Origin: Roseateles puraquae
GTDB lineage: Bacteria > Pseudomonadota > Gammaproteobacteria > Burkholderiales > Burkholderiaceae_C
Assembly (NCBI RefSeq): GCF_002205845.1
Contig: NZ_NISI01000001.1
Span: 1,426,001-1,490,000, forward strand
Direction of reading: 5' to 3'
DNA: 64,000 nt
The notes beneath the pieces are model-generated. The model saw nothing but the letters and a program-made list of their open reading frames with translations, was not told the origin of the DNA and searched no databases. The position numbers and the translations under genes were made by a program. Shown here in pieces: positions 14,900 through 26,547 of this stretch. Position 1 is the stretch's first letter. The number at the start of each line of letters is the position of its first letter.

Positions 14900-15304
14900 A
14901 TGTACCTGCTCGACACCAACGTCGTCTCCGAACTGCGCAAACCCAAGCCGCATGGCGGCGTGCTCGCCTGGTTCCAAGGCCTGGAAGACACCCAACTCCA
15001 TCTGAGCGCGGTGACCCTCGGCGAAATCCAGGCCGGCATCGAGATCACGCGCGAGCAAAACGCTGCCAAAGCTGAAGAGATCGAAGTCTGGCTGGAACGG
15101 GTGGCTGCGGCCTACAACGTGCTCCCGATGGACGCAGCGGCCTTTCGCACATGGGCCCGGTTCATGCACAGGCGCTCCGACACCTTGTACGAAGACGCCA
15201 TGATCGCCGCCACGGCCAAAGTGCATGGCCTGACGGTGGTGACCCGGAACGTGGCCGATTTCAAGGCCTTTGGCGTGCCGCTGTTGAATCCGTTCAAGAC
15301 CTGA
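14900..15304 (+). CDS. PIN-domain ribonuclease toxin (VapC/FitB type)
   Basis: Mg-dependent endoribonuclease toxin of 134 residues. The PIN acidic residues are visible: D5 in MYLLDTNVVSEL, the glutamate in TLGEIQAGI (about residue 43), D in YEDAMIAATA (about residue 99) and the late D in VVTRNVADFKAFG (about residue 116). All catalytic positions are kept, so it should be active. Its ribosome-binding site lies inside the antitoxin stop region. The closest family relation is VapC/FitB paired with Phd-type antitoxins. Confidence 0.9.
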   Translation: MYLLDTNVVSELRKPKPHGGVLAWFQGLEDTQLHLSAVTLGEIQAGIEITREQNAAKAEEIEVWLERVAAAYNVLPMDAAAFRTWARFMHRRSDTLYEDAMIAATAKVHGLTVVTRNVADFKAFGVPLLNPFKT

Positions 15305-15613: not shown

Positions 15614-16132
15614 TCATGGCGCGGGTTCGGTCAGTGCAAGCTCGTACACGGCGAGGTCAGCTGCCGCAAAGCAGCAAAAGATGACCTCATGGAGTTGCGG
15701 ATGTCGCTGGCTCACTGCCCGCACCGTCGCGATCGCGATGTCGGCTGCCAGCTCCACCGGATAGCCATAGATACCAGTGCTGATGCCGGGAAATGCGATT
15801 GACGCCACGCCCTTGGCACTGGCCACTTCCACCGAGCGGCGATAGCAGGACGCCAGCAAATCCGCCTCCCCGTGGCCGCCACCGCGCCAGACCGGCCCGA
15901 CGCTGTGCACGATGTACCGCGCTGGCAGACGATGGCCGGCGGTGATCTTGGCGTCTCCTGTCTTGCAACCGCCGAGCAGCCGGCACTCATGCACCAGGTC
16001 AGGCCCTGCGGCGCGGTGGATTGCACCGTCCACGCCACCGCCGCCCAGCAGCGACGAGTTGGCAGCATTCACGATGGCATCGACTCTCAACGTCGTGATG
16101 TCGGCGCGCAGGGCGCGAAGGATGACGGGCAT
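15614..16132 (-). CDS. Macro-domain O-acetyl-ADP-ribose deacetylase (YmdB type)
   Basis: Predicted ADP-ribose-binding hydrolase that removes acetyl or ADP-ribosyl groups; the E. coli homologue YmdB also modulates RNase III. The 172-residue protein is essentially one macro domain: [27 protein letters not shown] forms the adenosine/diphosphate-binding loop with the catalytic N and D, and [13 protein letters not shown] is the second phosphate loop. It is a single gene with no adjacent ADP-ribosyltransferase. Confidence 0.92.
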
Positions 16133-17366: not shown

Positions 17367-17510
17367 GCTCAGCCGGCCCGAGCCCGCGGTCAAGGCGGGC
17401 GACCCGCAGCGCGCTGCGCGCCATGCCCTTCCAGACAACTCCAGAAACACAGCCGGTGTAAGTTGCGCCCCTGGCCGTGCGACTCACGTCCATCACCTGC
17501 CGAGAGCCCC

Positions 17511-18479
17511 ATGCTGATCAAGACGCCTTTCTCCCACGAGCCCCTGCCCAGCGAGATCACGCCGCAGGGCGTCTACCTGAACCGCCGCACCGCGCTGGCG
17601 AGCCTTGGCCTGGCGGCAGCCTCGCCGCTGGCGCTGGCCCAGGGCATTGCCGGCGGCGGCAAGCTGCCCAAACTGCCGGCCACGCCGTCCACGGTGGCCG
17701 GGGCCATCACGAAGGACAAGGCCACCAGCTACACCGACGCGACCTCCTACAACAACTTCTACGAGTTCGGCACCGACAAGTCCGACCCGGCGTCCTACGC
17801 GCACACCCTCAAGACCCGCCCCTGGACGGTCAGCGTCGAGGGTGAATGCGCCAAGCCGATGCGCTTTGACATCGAGACCCTGCTCAAGCTCAGCGCCATG
17901 GAAGAGCGCATCTACCGCCTGCGCTGCGTGGAGGGCTGGAGCATGGTCATCCCGTGGGTGGGCTATTCGCTGGCCGAGGTGATCAAGAAGGTCGAGCCCA
18001 CCTCCAAGGCCAAGTACGTGGAGTTCACGAGCCTCGCCGACAAGTCGCAGATGCCCGGCGTGCGCTCCGGTGTGCTCGACTGGCCTTACGTGGAGGGCCT
18101 GCGCATCGACGAGGCCATGCATCCGCTGGCGATGCTGGTGTTCGGCATGTATGGCGAGCTGCTGCCCAACCAGAACGGTGCGCCGCTGCGGCTGGCCCTG
18201 CCGTGGAAGTACGGCTTCAAGTCGGCCAAGAGCCTCGTGAAGATCCGCCTGGTCGAGAAGGAGCCCGTGTCGAGCTGGACCAAGGCAGCCCAGCAGGAAT
18301 ACGGCTTCTATTCCAACGTGAACCCCAACGTGCCGCATCCGCGCTGGAGCCAGGCCACCGAACGCCGCATTGGCGAAGACGGCCTGTTCGCCAAGAAGCG
18401 GCCCACGCTGATGTTCAACGGCTACGGCGACCAGGTCGGCCAGCTCTACGCCGGCATGGACTTGAAGAAGAACTACTGA
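17511..18479 (+). CDS. msrP: Periplasmic methionine-sulfoxide reductase catalytic subunit MsrP
   Basis: Molybdopterin-containing enzyme that repairs oxidised methionine in periplasmic proteins. The 322-residue precursor has a Tat signal (twin arginine in [21 protein letters not shown]). The mature part contains the molybdenum-ligating cysteine in [17 protein letters not shown] and the family stretches [13 protein letters not shown] and [12 protein letters not shown]. The ATG at 17511 places the twin arginine at about residue 25. msrQ follows after 4 bp, forming the standard operon. Confidence 0.95.
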
Positions 18480-18483
18480 GCCG

Positions 18484-19101
18484 GTGAAGCGGGTCCTGAC
18501 CTCGGCGCTGCTCAGCCGCGCCGCCAAGCCGCTGCTGTTCCTGCTGTGCCTGGCGCCGCTGGCGTGGCTCGTCTATGCCGCGGCCACCAACCAGCTCGGC
18601 GCCAACCCGGCCGAAGCGCTGATCCGCCGCCTGGGCGACTGGACGCTGCGGGGCCTGTGGCTCACGCTCACGATCACGCCCCTGCGCGAACTCACGGGCC
18701 TTGCCGCCCTCGCGCGTTTTCGCCGCATGCTGGGCGTGTTCAGCTTCGCGTACGCCAGCCTGCACCTGCTGGCCTATGGCTGGCTCGACATGGGGCTGGA
18801 GATGGCCGACATCGCGCAGGACATTGCCAAGCGGCCCTTCATCCTGATGGGCTTCACCGCCTGGTTGCTGATGCTGCCGCTGGCGGCCACCAGCTTCAAC
18901 CGGGCCATCAAGGCGTTGGGCGCGAAGCGCTGGCAGGTGCTGCACAAGGCGGTCTACGCAGTGGCCGTGATCGGCCTGATGCACTTCATCTGGATGCGGG
19001 CGGGCAAGAACAACTTCATCGAGCCGGCCGTCTACGGCGCGCTGCTGGCCCTTTTGCTGGGTTGGCGACTGGTGCGGGCGCTGCGCCAGCGCCCCAGGTG
19101 A
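18484..19101 (+). CDS. msrQ: Haem-binding membrane subunit MsrQ
   Basis: Inner-membrane b-type cytochrome that passes quinol-derived electrons to MsrP. The 205-residue protein starts at a GTG 4 bp after msrP. It has five to six hydrophobic helices with conserved haem-ligand histidines in SFAYASLHLLAYG and RWQVLHKAVYAVAVIGLMHFIW. Family landmarks TLTITPLRELTG and RFRRMLGV are intact. Confidence 0.95.
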   Translation: MKRVLTSALLSRAAKPLLFLLCLAPLAWLVYAAATNQLGANPAEALIRRLGDWTLRGLWLTLTITPLRELTGLAALARFRRMLGVFSFAYASLHLLAYGWLDMGLEMADIAQDIAKRPFILMGFTAWLLMLPLAATSFNRAIKALGAKRWQVLHKAVYAVAVIGLMHFIWMRAGKNNFIEPAVYGALLALLLGWRLVRALRQRPR

Positions 19102-19143: not shown

Positions 19144-19761
19144 TCAGCGCGAACTCACGTAGACGACCTTCATCTCCTGGTAGGCGGTCAGCCGCCCGGC
19201 TGCTTCCAGGTTGAGAGGAAAGTAGGTGATCGATGCGGCGCTGAATCCCTCGCAGCGCAGCAGGTCACGCTCGGCCAGGTAAGCCCGATCGACAAACGTC
19301 TTGTGGGTGCGATCCGACCTGAAGCCGGCCCAGCCTGGCACCACCAACACCACTTTCGAAATGCCCAGCGCCCTGCAGCGGGCCAGCAGACGTCGCAGGC
19401 AGGCATCCGCCGCTTCGAAATGCTCCAGCACATGGGACAGCACCAGGCACCGATACACGCCGGCCGGCAGGAACGCCAACTCGAATGGGTCGGCACTGCC
19501 TGCTGCGTCGACCACCGACAGGCCGCGGCTGCGCAGATGGGCCAGCAGATGCGGATTGACCTCCACGCCGATGGACCCCGCCGGCATGCGCTCCAGCATC
19601 TGCCCAGCCCCACAACCGAGATCCACGCTCGGGCCGTCCAGTTCGCGCAAGACGCTGCGCAAGTAAAGCGACTTGATCTGGCGCCGCAGCGGATGGCGCG
19701 CGCGGCGCAATTGCTCCGCGGCGTATCCCAGGTCGAACTCCGAATGCTGCGACTCACCCAT
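19144..19761 (-). CDS. Class I SAM-dependent methyltransferase
   Basis: Predicted methyltransferase of unknown substrate, about 205 residues. The SAM-binding motif I is VDLGCGAGQMLERMP, motif II is GVEVNPHLLAHLRSRG, and the LSHVLEHF motif (post-I/IV) is typical of methionine_S-methyltransferase-like Methyltransf_11 proteins. The start at 19761 follows GGAAAGAG with 5-nt spacing; 19776 is an alternative. Codon choice looks slightly less GC-rich than in the neighbours, which could reflect later acquisition. It is divergent from the oxidoreductase-FolB fusion gene. Confidence 0.75.
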   Translation of the reverse strand: MGESQHSEFDLGYAAEQLRRARHPLRRQIKSLYLRSVLRELDGPSVDLGCGAGQMLERMPAGSIGVEVNPHLLAHLRSRGLSVVDAAGSADPFELAFLPAGVYRCLVLSHVLEHFEAADACLRRLLARCRALGISKVVLVVPGWAGFRSDRTHKTFVDRAYLAERDLLRCEGFSAASITYFPLNLEAAGRLTAYQEMKVVYVSSR

Positions 19762-19933
19762 TTCAACTCTTTCCATGAACCCCGTCCGGCCGTGCGTTCG
19801 GTGCGCCCCTGACCCAACGGCGGGCACCCGTCGAAGGATCGTAAACGCCCCGCATGCGGCGCCCACGCGCTTGCCGCACGCCTGCATGGCCGACGCACGC
19901 CGCCCATAATGGCGGCCCTCGCAGGATCGCCCC

Positions 19934-21181
19934 ATGACCAGCCCCCATTCCTTCGACGTCGTCATCCTCGGCGGTGGCCCCGCCGGCTGCAGCGCGGCCT
20001 CCTGGCTCCGTCAGCTCGGCCTCACGGCCCTGCTGGTGGAACGTGAAGCCCAGCTCTGCGCCTCGCTTGCAGCGCTGGACTTTCCGCAGGACTGGGTGCT
20101 GGGCGAACCCGCCACGCGGCTGTGCGACCTGGCCGCCGAGTACGCCGCCCAGGCACGTGCCACGCCCGGCCTGGCCTTGCGGCTCGGCGCCCAGGTCGAG
20201 TCGGCCCGGCACACCGCCGAGGGCTGGGCGCTGCAACTCGCGGGCGGCGAGCGAGTGCAGGCGCGCGCGCTGCTGATTGCCACGGGCCTGCGCCTGCTGC
20301 GACCGGCACGCTACTTCGCGTCGCCCCACGCCCGGGTGCTCGATGCCTCCAGCCTCACCGCGCAGCGCGACAGCCTGGCGCCCGGGCGCGCACTGCTGCT
20401 CGGCGCCGGTGACAACGCCGCCGAGAACGCGCTGCATCTCGCCGAACGCGGCTTCGAGGTCACGGTATGGACGCGCAGCGGTTGGCGCGCGCAGACGCAC
20501 CTCGTCGAACGCATCGAGCGCCATCCGCGCATCACGGTCCGCCTGTCCACGCCGCTCCCCGACGCCCTGCTGCCCGATGCCGACGGCGTGAGCGTGGGCG
20601 CGGAGCGCTTCGACATTGCCGCCGTGCTGTTGGGTTTCGAGCCCGAGCCCTCGGCCTTCGCGCTGCTGGACGAGCATGCCCGCCAGCGGGTGTTCGTCGC
20701 GGGCGACGCCAGCGGCCGCTGGCACCCCTGCGTGCAGACGGCCCTGGCCGATGGCGTGCAGGCGGCCAAGCAGATCGAGCAGGCCTTGCGCCCGCAGGCC
20801 ATGGCCGCACCGCTGCGGCACAACAACCGCCAGGTCATCCATCTGCAGGGGCTGCGTTTTCGGGCCAACCTCGGCGTGCTGGATTTCGAGCGCACCGGCC
20901 CTCAGCCCATCCAGGTGGATGCCGAAGTCAACCTCGGCTCGCTACCGGTGGTGGCGCGGGATGCCGACATCGGCCATGTGCTCGACTACCGCCGGGTGCG
21001 CACCGCCATCATCGATGAATGCACCGCCGAGCACACCGACCTCGTCGAGGCCTTGCTGGGCAAGCTGTGCAACCGGCTGATGAGCCTGCCCGGCGTCGTG
21101 GGCGTGCGGCTCAAGCTGACCAAGCTGGAGATCTTCCCCGACTGCGAAGTCGCCATCAGCACCGAAGTCGGCGCCTGGTAA
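19934..21181 (+). CDS. Fusion: thioredoxin-reductase-like FAD/NAD(P) oxidoreductase + dihydroneopterin aldolase (FolB)
   Basis: Two-domain protein of 415 residues. Residues about 7-290 form a flavin-dependent pyridine-nucleotide oxidoreductase: N-terminal FAD motif VVILGGGPAGCSAASWL, internal NAD(P) motif LLLGAGDNAAENALHLAE and the C-terminal VFVAGDASGR FAD loop. The CxxC redox pair of thioredoxin reductases is absent. Residues 301-415 are a FolB-like aldolase domain, with the glutamate in DFERTGPQPIQVD, the DYRRVRTAI segment and the catalytic-type lysine in LKLTKLEIFPDCE. No frameshift separates the parts. FolB cleaves dihydroneopterin in folate synthesis; the oxidoreductase might act on the same or a related pterin, which is inference. 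Confidence 0.85.
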   Translation: MTSPHSFDVVILGGGPAGCSAASWLRQLGLTALLVEREAQLCASLAALDFPQDWVLGEPATRLCDLAAEYAAQARATPGLALRLGAQVESARHTAEGWALQLAGGERVQARALLIATGLRLLRPARYFASPHARVLDASSLTAQRDSLAPGRALLLGAGDNAAENALHLAERGFEVTVWTRSGWRAQTHLVERIERHPRITVRLSTPLPDALLPDADGVSVGAERFDIAAVLLGFEPEPSAFALLDEHARQRVFVAGDASGRWHPCVQTALADGVQAAKQIEQALRPQAMAAPLRHNNRQVIHLQGLRFRANLGVLDFERTGPQPIQVDAEVNLGSLPVVARDADIGHVLDYRRVRTAIIDECTAEHTDLVEALLGKLCNRLMSLPGVVGVRLKLTKLEIFPDCEVAISTEVGAW

Positions 21182-21298: not shown

Positions 21299-22222
21299 AT
21301 GTTGCACACCTCGCACGTCAGTTGCTGCGCCAGCCTTCGGCAGACCCTGCTCCAGGGCTGGCAGCAGTCCTTCCCGCTGCATTCATCGCCGTTCCGGCAG
21401 ATGGCTGCCAGCAGCGGCGCGACCCCGCGCGAGCTGCTTGCGCTGTGCCAGGACCTGCACCGCCGCGGCGCGCTTCAGCCCGTGCTTCCCACCTGGGGCG
21501 AAGGCCTGTCGCGCGAGCGCTGGCGCCTGGCCTTCAGCCCGGGGTGGGACGATGCCGCGCTGGCGTCGGCCGTGGCTGCGCTGCCCGGCTGCTTCCACCT
21601 GGAGCGTGCGTCCGCCCCCCAGCCCGGCCTGCCGGCGCTGTGGGCGGAGCTGGATGTACTGGACGCGACCGCGCTCGCGGCCCAGCTGGCACGGCTGCCC
21701 GAGCCGCCTTGTGCAAGCCTGGCGCTGCACGCCGCCACGCCGGGCGCAGCGGCTTGCGATGACATCGACACCGCGATCGCGCTGGAACGGGGCCTGCCCC
21801 TGTGCTCCCGCCCCTATGCCGACTGCGCCCGGCGCCTGGGCTGCAGCGAGTCGCGGCTGCTCGCGCGGATGCAGACGTGGCGCCGCAGCGGGCTGCTGGC
21901 CGGCCTGTCGCTCAAGCCCCCGCCATCGCGCGTGCCGCAGCCCGGCCTGTTGGCGCTCTGGCGCGAGGCCGCCACACCGCAGAGCCTGCAGCGCCTGCAC
22001 GACCACCCCGGCGTGGAACGCATCCACACCGCCCACGGGACGCCGGCCTGGCCCTGGCGCCTGAGCCTGGTACTGCACGCCGCGCCCCAGCTGGCCCTCG
22101 ACCAACTGCGCGAAACTGCCGCCCACGCCGGCCTGCGCGCGCCCGACGCCAGCCTGCGGCTGCAGATCGAGCAGCCGCGCGACCAGGCACTGCTGTTTCT
22201 CACCCGAACCGGCAATGCCTGA
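21299..22222 (+). CDS. NirL/AhbAB-like (siroheme decarboxylase family) protein with two AsnC-type HTH units
   Basis: The 307-residue protein appears to be an internal duplication. HTH-like units at about residues 14-60 (QQSFPLHSSPFRQMAASSGATPRELL) and 155-205 (ERGLPLCSRPYADCARRLGCSESRLL) both follow the fP-x-x-x-x-Pf pattern of NirD/L/G/H and Ahb proteins, each followed by an AsnC-like alpha/beta region. In haem d1 synthesis such proteins decarboxylate siroheme. Here the RxG motif and catalytic histidine/arginine context after the helix are weak, and nirE, nirF and nirJ are absent. It may be an orphan enzyme remnant or an Lrp-like regulator. It lies downstream of an FNR-like box. Confidence 0.6.
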   Translation: MLHTSHVSCCASLRQTLLQGWQQSFPLHSSPFRQMAASSGATPRELLALCQDLHRRGALQPVLPTWGEGLSRERWRLAFSPGWDDAALASAVAALPGCFHLERASAPQPGLPALWAELDVLDATALAAQLARLPEPPCASLALHAATPGAAACDDIDTAIALERGLPLCSRPYADCARRLGCSESRLLARMQTWRRSGLLAGLSLKPPPSRVPQPGLLALWREAATPQSLQRLHDHPGVERIHTAHGTPAWPWRLSLVLHAAPQLALDQLRETAAHAGLRAPDASLRLQIEQPRDQALLFLTRTGNA

Positions 22223-25460: not shown

Positions 25461-25611
25461 TTCTAGAAAGCCACGCCAATCGGGCGTTTGACCGGCGTCA
25501 AGCCACGACCGGCGCGCGAAGATCGGCCGGGTTTGGGACAATGCGCGGGTTTTGCCTCGACGGCACCCGTCGCCACCCTCCAGCGCGCCCACCGAGCGCC
25601 CTGCTCCGCCC

Positions 25612-26547
25612 ATGTCCGAAGTTCTCGCCCCCCAAGCCCCCGCCACGCCCAGCGCTGAAGACCTCGCGGCCAAGAAACACGCCCACGAGATCAACAAGCT
25701 CTCCAAGCGCCTGCACCGCCAGGTGGGCCAGGCCATCACCGACTTCAACATGATCGAAGAAGGCGACAAGGTCATGGTGTGCCTGTCCGGCGGCAAGGAC
25801 AGCTACTCCATGCTGGACATCCTGATGAACCTGCAGCAGCGGGCTCCCATCAAGTTCGAGCTCATCGCCGTCAACCTCGACCAGAAACAGCCCGGCTTCC
25901 CCGAGGACGTGCTGCCCAACTACCTCAAGACCCGCGGCGTGCCCTTCCACATCGAAGAGCAGGACACCTACTCCGTCGTCAAGCGCGTGGTGCCCGAAGG
26001 CAAGACCACCTGCGGGCTGTGCTCGCGGCTGCGCCGGGGCATCCTGTACCGCGTGGCGGGCGAGTTGGGCTGCACCAAGATCGCGCTCGGCCATCACCGC
26101 GACGACATCGTCACGACGCTGTTCCTGAACATGTTCTTCGGCAGCCGCATGAAGGGCATGCCGCCCAAGCTGGTCAGTGACGACGGTAAGAACGTGGTCA
26201 TCCGCCCGCTGGCCTATGTGAAGGAGCCCGACCTCGTGCGCTGGGCCGAGCACCGTGAGTTCCCCATCATTCCGTGCAACCTGTGCGGCAGCCAGGAGAA
26301 CCTGCAGCGGGTGCAGGTCAAGGCCATGATCAACGAGTGGGAGAAGCGCTACCCCGGCCGCATCGACAACATCTTCACGGCCATGACCAACATCGTGCCC
26401 TCGCACATGATGGACAAGAAGCTCTTCCCCTTCGAGACCATCCAGGCCACAGGCCAGGCCACCGCCGATGGCGACATCGCCTTCGACGACGACGAGTCTT
26501 GCGCCACGCCGTCTGCCGGTGCTTCGGTGATCACGCTGCAAAGGTGA
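25612..26547 (+). CDS. ttcA: tRNA 2-thiocytidine(32) synthetase TtcA
   Basis: ATP- and [4Fe-4S]-dependent enzyme that thiolates cytidine 32 in certain tRNAs. The 311-residue product has the PP-loop SGGKDS in [18 protein letters not shown] and the CxxC cluster motif in [12 protein letters not shown]. The third ligand cysteine is in [27 protein letters not shown] is intact. The ATG at 25612 gives MSEVLAPQ; the lysine- and histidine-rich helix [20 protein letters not shown] follows, as in other betaproteobacterial TtcA proteins. Confidence 0.97.

Follow-up and report, generated by a model that had tools for sequence, protein, structure and literature searches.

A flavoprotein–FolB fusion in Roseateles and its relatives appears to take the place of a pteridine-reductase-like SDR beside folB

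Dihydroneopterin aldolase (FolB) cleaves 7,8-dihydroneopterin to 6-hydroxymethyl-7,8-dihydropterin for folate synthesis, and phenylalanine hydroxylase is a known user of tetrahydropterin. FolB can be one part of a larger protein, as in the FolB–FolK fusion of Bifidobacterium longum described in the accessible sections of PMC1971073, where the partner is a folate enzyme and not an oxidoreductase. The same sections offer a precedent for a flavin reductase joined to a folate-pathway enzyme, a flavin-dependent dihydropteroate reductase fused to DHPS and thus to a partner other than FolB, which we liken to the present case by description only. The motif TGX3RXG is given as the pteridine-reductase signature, marking PTR1, FolM and PruA (accessible parts of PMC1971073 and PMC13259868), and the available text of PMC13259868 and PMC5587915 presents FolM-type pteridine reductases as widespread in bacteria, their role beyond the phenylalanine hydroxylase cofactor as unsettled and pterin redox state as recently linked to signalling. 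The literature searched, a partial coverage with few subscription journals, held neither a flavoprotein–FolB fusion nor a flavoprotein replacing a pteridine reductase.

The window, the whole 64,000-nucleotide stretch of Roseateles puraquae contig NZ_NISI01000001.1 that was analysed, encodes such a fusion in a single frame, with a thioredoxin-reductase-type FAD/NAD(P)H domain (residues about 1-289) followed by a FolB domain (residues 301-415).

19934..21181, + strand: flavoprotein–FolB fusion gene, single frame, 415 aa, stop counted in the coordinates
19934..20800, + strand: flavin domain (residues 1-289), thioredoxin-reductase-type two-Rossmann FAD/NAD(P)H fold without CxxC
19970..19987, + strand: FAD dinucleotide-binding motif GGGPAG (residues 13-18), read from the sequence, with G13, G15, P16 and A17 invariant in 55 rows
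20402..20431, + strand: NAD(P)H-binding motif GAGDNAAENA (residues 157-166), with the GxGDN family signature
20699..20755, + strand: C-terminal FAD motif AGDASGRWHPCVQTALADG (residues 256-274), with nine invariant residues (given below)
20834..21178, + strand: FolB (dihydroneopterin aldolase) domain, residues 301-415, PF02152, with E319, Y352, E372 and K397

Related loci were collected by a scan of genome contigs, from which the best 80 of 438 confirmed stretches were taken. The same open fusion is found in 54 of these 80 (L031-L084), with matched stretches of 413-464 aa in which the flavin and FolB parts share one stop-free frame, and 26 (L085-L110) hold FolB without the flavin part. Fused records are titled mainly Roseateles, Pelomonas, Paucibacter and Mitsuaria, plus MAGs. 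The fusion was also checked as one open frame in all 26 fusion genomes of a 299-genome family sample, a set that overlaps the 54 loci. This recurrence rules out a sequencing or assembly error behind the join, the event that the sequence-only reading had named as fatal to its division of the protein into a flavin part and a FolB part in one continuous frame, and the division itself is confirmed. One fused record, JAIPCJ010000087.1 (L031), is titled as a Methylotenera MAG, yet it is 97% identical to the window over the fusion and shares its neighbouring genes; the title looks wrong, or the bin mixed. Spread of the fusion on plasmids was rejected, as none of the plasmid records reaches 80% coverage of the query; of four plasmid matches, one is to FolB only and three are weak ones to the flavin part. 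A consensus scan for promoters and terminators gave no match and is uninformative. The FolB part of the predicted structure has low pLDDT, for which reason we propose no contact surface between the two halves. The Foldseek and VIA lists were filled by the flavin half, so the missing FolB folds there carry no meaning.

The flavin domain has the two-Rossmann FAD/NAD(P)H fold of thioredoxin reductase, and its cofactor motifs are strictly kept: G157, G159, D160, N161, A162, E164, N165 and A166 of the NAD(P)H motif and A256, G257, D258, S260, H264, P265, T269, A270 and G274 of the C-terminal FAD motif are invariant in the 55 fused rows. R181 and R185, which by eye we align with the arginines of thioredoxin reductase that bind the NADPH phosphate, are each present in 54 of the 55. 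The redox-active CxxC, reported as missing when only the window had been read, is absent from 55/55 fused proteins and from 18/18 unfused homologues. The domain is thus like the low-molecular-weight thioredoxin reductase family (TIGR01292) in its fold and its FAD and NAD(P)H motifs, but differs in lacking CxxC, in carrying GxGDN and in being linked to folB, and the window protein falls far below the TIGR01292 cut-off (54.7 versus 343.45); not all members of that family are thioredoxin reductases, one exception being ferredoxin/flavodoxin-NADP reductase 2. Its Pfam list includes no SDR family, and its fold is that of thioredoxin reductase instead of the SDR fold with TGX3RXG and YX3K. Our proposal is that the domain may work like a pteridine reductase of the SDR family, not that it is an SDR.

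The C-terminal half scores 62.8 bits against PF02152 (gathering cut-off 31.8) and keeps E319, Y352, E372 and K397, which we take to be the catalytic Glu, Tyr, Glu and Lys of FolB, in 55/55 fused rows. Against the TIGR00525 dihydroneopterin aldolase equivalog it reaches 44.1 for a cut-off of 72.15, a threshold also missed by four unfused FolB or FolB2 proteins of relatives in the window's family, f1 (52.2, 48.5, 56.0 and 50.3), and passed by the one FolB scanned from family f4 (79.3). We file this half as a FolB-domain protein and a putative aldolase. A separate complete folB, which had been listed among the findings that would tell against the earlier interpretation, did not turn up: a search with PF02152 gave the fusion as the sole FolB domain in 20/20 fusion genomes, with no second FolB elsewhere. 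The half is like described FolB proteins in passing the Pfam cut-off, in its residues, in being the sole FolB and in having ttcA downstream, and unlike them in being fused to a flavoprotein and in scoring below TIGR00525.

The neighbours that recur on either side of the fusion are the following.

17463..19101, + strand: msrP-msrQ, upstream neighbour (NF003767, 478 bits; NF003831, 173.5 bits)
25552..26547, + strand: ttcA, conserved downstream neighbour (NF007972, 488.9 bits)

Among the fused loci within the best 80 of 438, msrP-msrQ lies upstream in 46/54 and ttcA is present, whole or partial, in 52/54; in the window a NirDL-NMO-NnrS-NsrR group separates the fusion from ttcA.

The position directly upstream of folB is where the two kinds of locus differ. 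Within the same best 80 of 438, an SDR lies directly upstream of folB in 26/26 loci with unfused FolB and in 0/54 fused loci (for L048 just 457 bases upstream of the fusion were available). YX3K is present in 26/26 of these folB-side SDRs and TGX3RXG in 25/26, the aligned part of L108 being without that end. Beyond the SDR, a divergent methyltransferase gene, MT28 (PF02636), is found in 24/26 unfused-FolB loci; L094 and L108 start too near for it to be seen. MT28 is retained upstream in five fused loci (L076, L077, L079, L081 and L082), which places the flavoprotein between MT28 and folB, as the SDR is elsewhere, and the fusion of G103 occupies the same MT28-flanked position. MT28 and the fusion are adjacent in L082, and the gap that separates them in L076, L077 and L081 is wide enough for a further ORF. 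The ORFs found in this gap in L076 (5034-5978, + strand) and L081 (5151-6023, + strand) are alike in their hydrophobic N-terminal region and in the sequence AIxIRRTSTxQ(V/I)D. In five of the 26 unfused-FolB loci (L095, L103, L105, L108 and L109) there is a tandem FolB pair, with FolB2 between the SDR and folB; these FolB2 proteins are 32-36% identical to the window FolB domain, and the SDR beside them is of a second type.

Three folB-side SDRs were scanned against NCBIfam, and the best model for each was NF006597 (PRK09134), over the cut-off in two of the three. This model is labelled 'SDR family oxidoreductase' with no named function, and the literature searched, with few subscription journals covered, yielded no mention of PRK09134 by name. 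The pteridine reductase model NF006598 came second for these three proteins and the dihydromonapterin reductase model NF005066 lower still, both below cut-off. According to the accessible part of PMC5587915, folM of Burkholderia pseudomallei is in an operon with folE, that is, away from folB. Taking the best-scoring model and the B. pseudomallei arrangement together, we regard the displaced SDR as pteridine-reductase-like and not as a characterised FolM. The sequence-only reading had supposed a FolM-type reductase beside folB in relatives and a flavoprotein, fused to the aldolase, in its stead: an SDR with the pteridine-reductase motif is indeed there and the flavoprotein does replace it, but its identity with characterised FolM, and hence FolM as the replaced protein, did not hold up.

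The replacement can be followed at short evolutionary range. Within the window's genus, G015 has the order msrP-msrQ-SDR-FolB2-NirDL-NMO-ttcA and the window msrP-msrQ-fusion-NirDL-NMO-ttcA, the G015 FolB being of the FolB2 kind and 28% identical to the window FolB; fused and SDR genomes also coexist in two genera, groups g99 and g85. The fused label requires four changes in both the FolB tree (119 columns, with many unresolved forks) and the TtcA tree (some loci missing), of which well-supported branches force at least two and three, respectively. A fused locus, L082, is sister to an SDR locus, L099, in both trees (99/91 and 100/100). In a flavin-domain tree of 39 rows (22 of the 55 fused rows plus 17 unfused, with G497 excluded), the fused flavin domains form one clade (100/100). 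We caution that the count of independent swaps is soft, because the L081 record is titled UNVERIFIED_CONTAM, and L076, L077, L079 and L082 are MAGs; G107 and L079 also seem to represent a single contig. The data fit a history in which folB stayed in place and the reductase gene ahead of it was exchanged, and equally one in which the flavin part was lost, and the SDR gained, more than once; under either history the flavoprotein and the SDR are treated as interchangeable. That the flavoprotein stands in for the folB-side SDR is well supported.

Genome-wide searches point the same way. The fusion is present in 20 of 60 relatives (G000-G010, G012-G014, G016-G019, G026 and G032), and none of the 20 holds a strong relative of the folB-side SDR used as query, so a separate SDR of that kind, another finding that would have weakened the earlier proposal, was not seen. 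The best matches in these genomes are at E 7e-26 or weaker, and all 14 of those inspected carry the ordinary TGX3GXG, not TGX3RXG; in 15/15 family members with FolB but without the fusion, the SDR is found at E 1.4e-54 or better. One further family member, G011 (83% complete), has neither the fusion nor a FolB match. Across 299 genomes of family f1, the flavin domain occurs in 27 at E <= 1e-15, fused with FolB in 26, and the SDR occurs in 257 at E <= 1e-36, the two counts having been made with the same sampling settings and being taken as the same genomes, with visible handles agreeing. The SDR is thus present in 1/26 fusion genomes versus 256/273 others (Fisher p 3e-24, kinship uncorrected). 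Both types occur together in two genomes: G158, whose fusion is where it normally lies and which has an SDR-FolB2 pair as well, on another contig of 5.5 kb (L205 and L206), and G268, which holds the only unfused flavin domain found in the 299 genomes at E <= 1e-15, a 33% homologue away from folB. The G158 SDR-FolB2 pair is a second cassette or contamination. Neither type was found in 17/299, some of them incomplete. In an order sample of 349 genomes, drawn with like settings for both searches and again treated as one set, the flavoprotein was found in 18 (window counted) and the SDR in 74, with an overlap of 0/18 that is weak evidence (p 0.017, kinship uncorrected, leaning on few families); most genomes of this sample have neither at the cut-offs used. 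FolA is present in 19/20 fusion genomes, the exception being G014 (91% complete). Phenylalanine hydroxylase was found in 1/20 fusion genomes (in G005, where a contig end leaves only a fragment) versus 9/15 non-fused family members (Fisher p 0.0006, kinship uncorrected). A further 37 genomes, 20 with the fusion and 17 with the unfused flavoprotein, gave 0/37 above cut-off.

Outside the family the flavoprotein occurs unfused. Homologues with matched stretches of 273-310 aa were found at E <= 1e-20 in 17 other-family genomes of the 349, in a search started from the G268 homologue. Few candidates were scored in each genome: the window's own was the sole fused gene found, and the unfused count is a lower bound. 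All 18 unfused homologues (these 17 and that of G268) carry GGGDN. In family f4 the gene is divergent to folB-ttcA in 8/8 genomes, and in the other 9/17 (six f44 and one each of f35, f5 and f21) it does not lie beside folB: it adjoins MT28 in the six f44 genomes and the f5 genome, is next to ttcA in the f21 genome, where a single ORF separates it from MT28, and in the f35 genome has none of folB, ttcA or MT28 in view nearby. A strong match to the folB-side SDR was found in 0/17 of these genomes outside f1 (best E about 1e-21; cut-off 1e-16).

Position and presence–absence pattern suggest that the flavoprotein does the same job as FolM/PTR1/PruA-type proteins or a linked one, although its fold and flavin cofactor are different and the SDR displaced is PRK09134. 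The reading we favour, at a confidence just short of even, is that the fusion is a two-domain pterin enzyme whose flavin half would act as an NADPH-flavin pterin reductase in place of the folB-side SDR; here the swap is well supported, and that the substrate is a pterin is what we infer. NADPH would reduce the FAD, and the reduced FAD would transfer a hydride directly to a pterin that occupies the place of the CxxC of thioredoxin reductase; this transfer would take place beside the FolB step or immediately ahead of it. The acceptor might be a 7,8-dihydropterin, reduced to a tetrahydropterin, or an oxidised pterin, brought back to the 7,8-dihydro state on which FolB and FolK act, and the fusion would keep the two activities, reduction and cleavage, side by side for one pterin pool. 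Because the folB-side SDR belongs to PRK09134, which has no named function, the reaction does not follow from an equivalence of the two proteins. The near absence of phenylalanine hydroxylase indicates that supplying this enzyme is not the role of the flavoprotein, and it is improbable that the flavoprotein simply replaces a FolM that serves PhhA. Slightly more tentatively, the GxGDN, disulfide-free proteins of thioredoxin-reductase fold could form a new family of flavin-dependent pterin reductases that replaces SDR pteridine reductases across the order and supplies half of a bifunctional reductase–aldolase in the Roseateles–Paucibacter–Mitsuaria group. A structurally unrelated flavoprotein at the SDR's site, even within one genus, means that the reaction beside FolB is kept by more than one route, and the fused protein offers a direct assay handle on that step; if pterin reduction is the true activity, one more enzyme family would have come to it independently.

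A more restricted version of this reading, which we hold to be rather unlikely taken by itself, is repair with no net production of tetrahydropterin: the flavin domain would restore over-oxidised pterins, or some other damaged product arising around the FolB step, to the 7,8-dihydro state and so make them usable by FolB and FolK. With phenylalanine hydroxylase missing almost throughout, tetrahydropterin has no known taker in these genomes, and the folate synthesis genes are kept (one FolB in 20/20, FolA in 19/20). The accessible part of PMC1971073 lends this idea PTR1, which permits the use of oxidised pterins, but also reports that E. coli FolM and Xylella PD0677 fail to reduce them, so that the SDR of this slot may be inactive on them too. 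The retained folA also bears on whether the flavoprotein is a back-up dihydrofolate reductase, an activity seen weakly in E. coli FolM (accessible part of PMC5587915): with folA already in 19/20 fusion genomes, we consider this very improbable.

That the true partner of the flavoprotein is a different neighbour and not FolB, for instance that it works as reductant for TtcA in tRNA thiolation or as partner of MT28, and was fused through adjacency only, seems improbable to us. It would account for ttcA in 52/54 fused loci (best 80 of 438), for the unfused gene of G497, which lies directly upstream of ttcA without folB, and for the six f44 genomes, whose gene beside MT28 has no folB or ttcA match in the stretch read; against this, ttcA lies downstream in the SDR-folB type as well, the fusion to FolB is maintained across many genera, and the mutual exclusion of flavoprotein and SDR, together with the TGX3RXG of the latter, indicates pterins. 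A decayed or accidental fusion, with the flavin domain as inactive ballast on FolB, is scarcely credible. The flavin part is the more variable (46-96% identical to the window versus 70-100% for FolB in 51 fused loci, L079, L081 and L082 excluded), but its dN/dS is 0.07-0.28, with 0-0.08 for FolB, in the nine usable pairs of ten (L043 was dropped as out of register), its FAD and NAD(P)H motifs are invariant in 55 rows, and the same flavoprotein family is maintained unfused elsewhere. The pterin-reductase reading remains the one we prefer.

Several further genes lie around the fusion in the window. A small SAM methyltransferase-like gene (19144-19965, - strand) is divergent from it and has no match in the loci of the 54 fused relatives. 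Downstream, 21299-22222 (+ strand) encodes a NirDL-like protein of 307 aa, a single frame that contains two HTH stretches of the siroheme-decarboxylase type. Among the 54 fused relatives it is matched only in L031, L032, L033 and L041, and beside its gene are those for NnrS, a nitronate monooxygenase-like protein and an NsrR-like Rrf2 protein. Also near the locus are genes for a PIN-domain protein (14900-15304, + strand) and a macro-domain protein (15614-16132, - strand).
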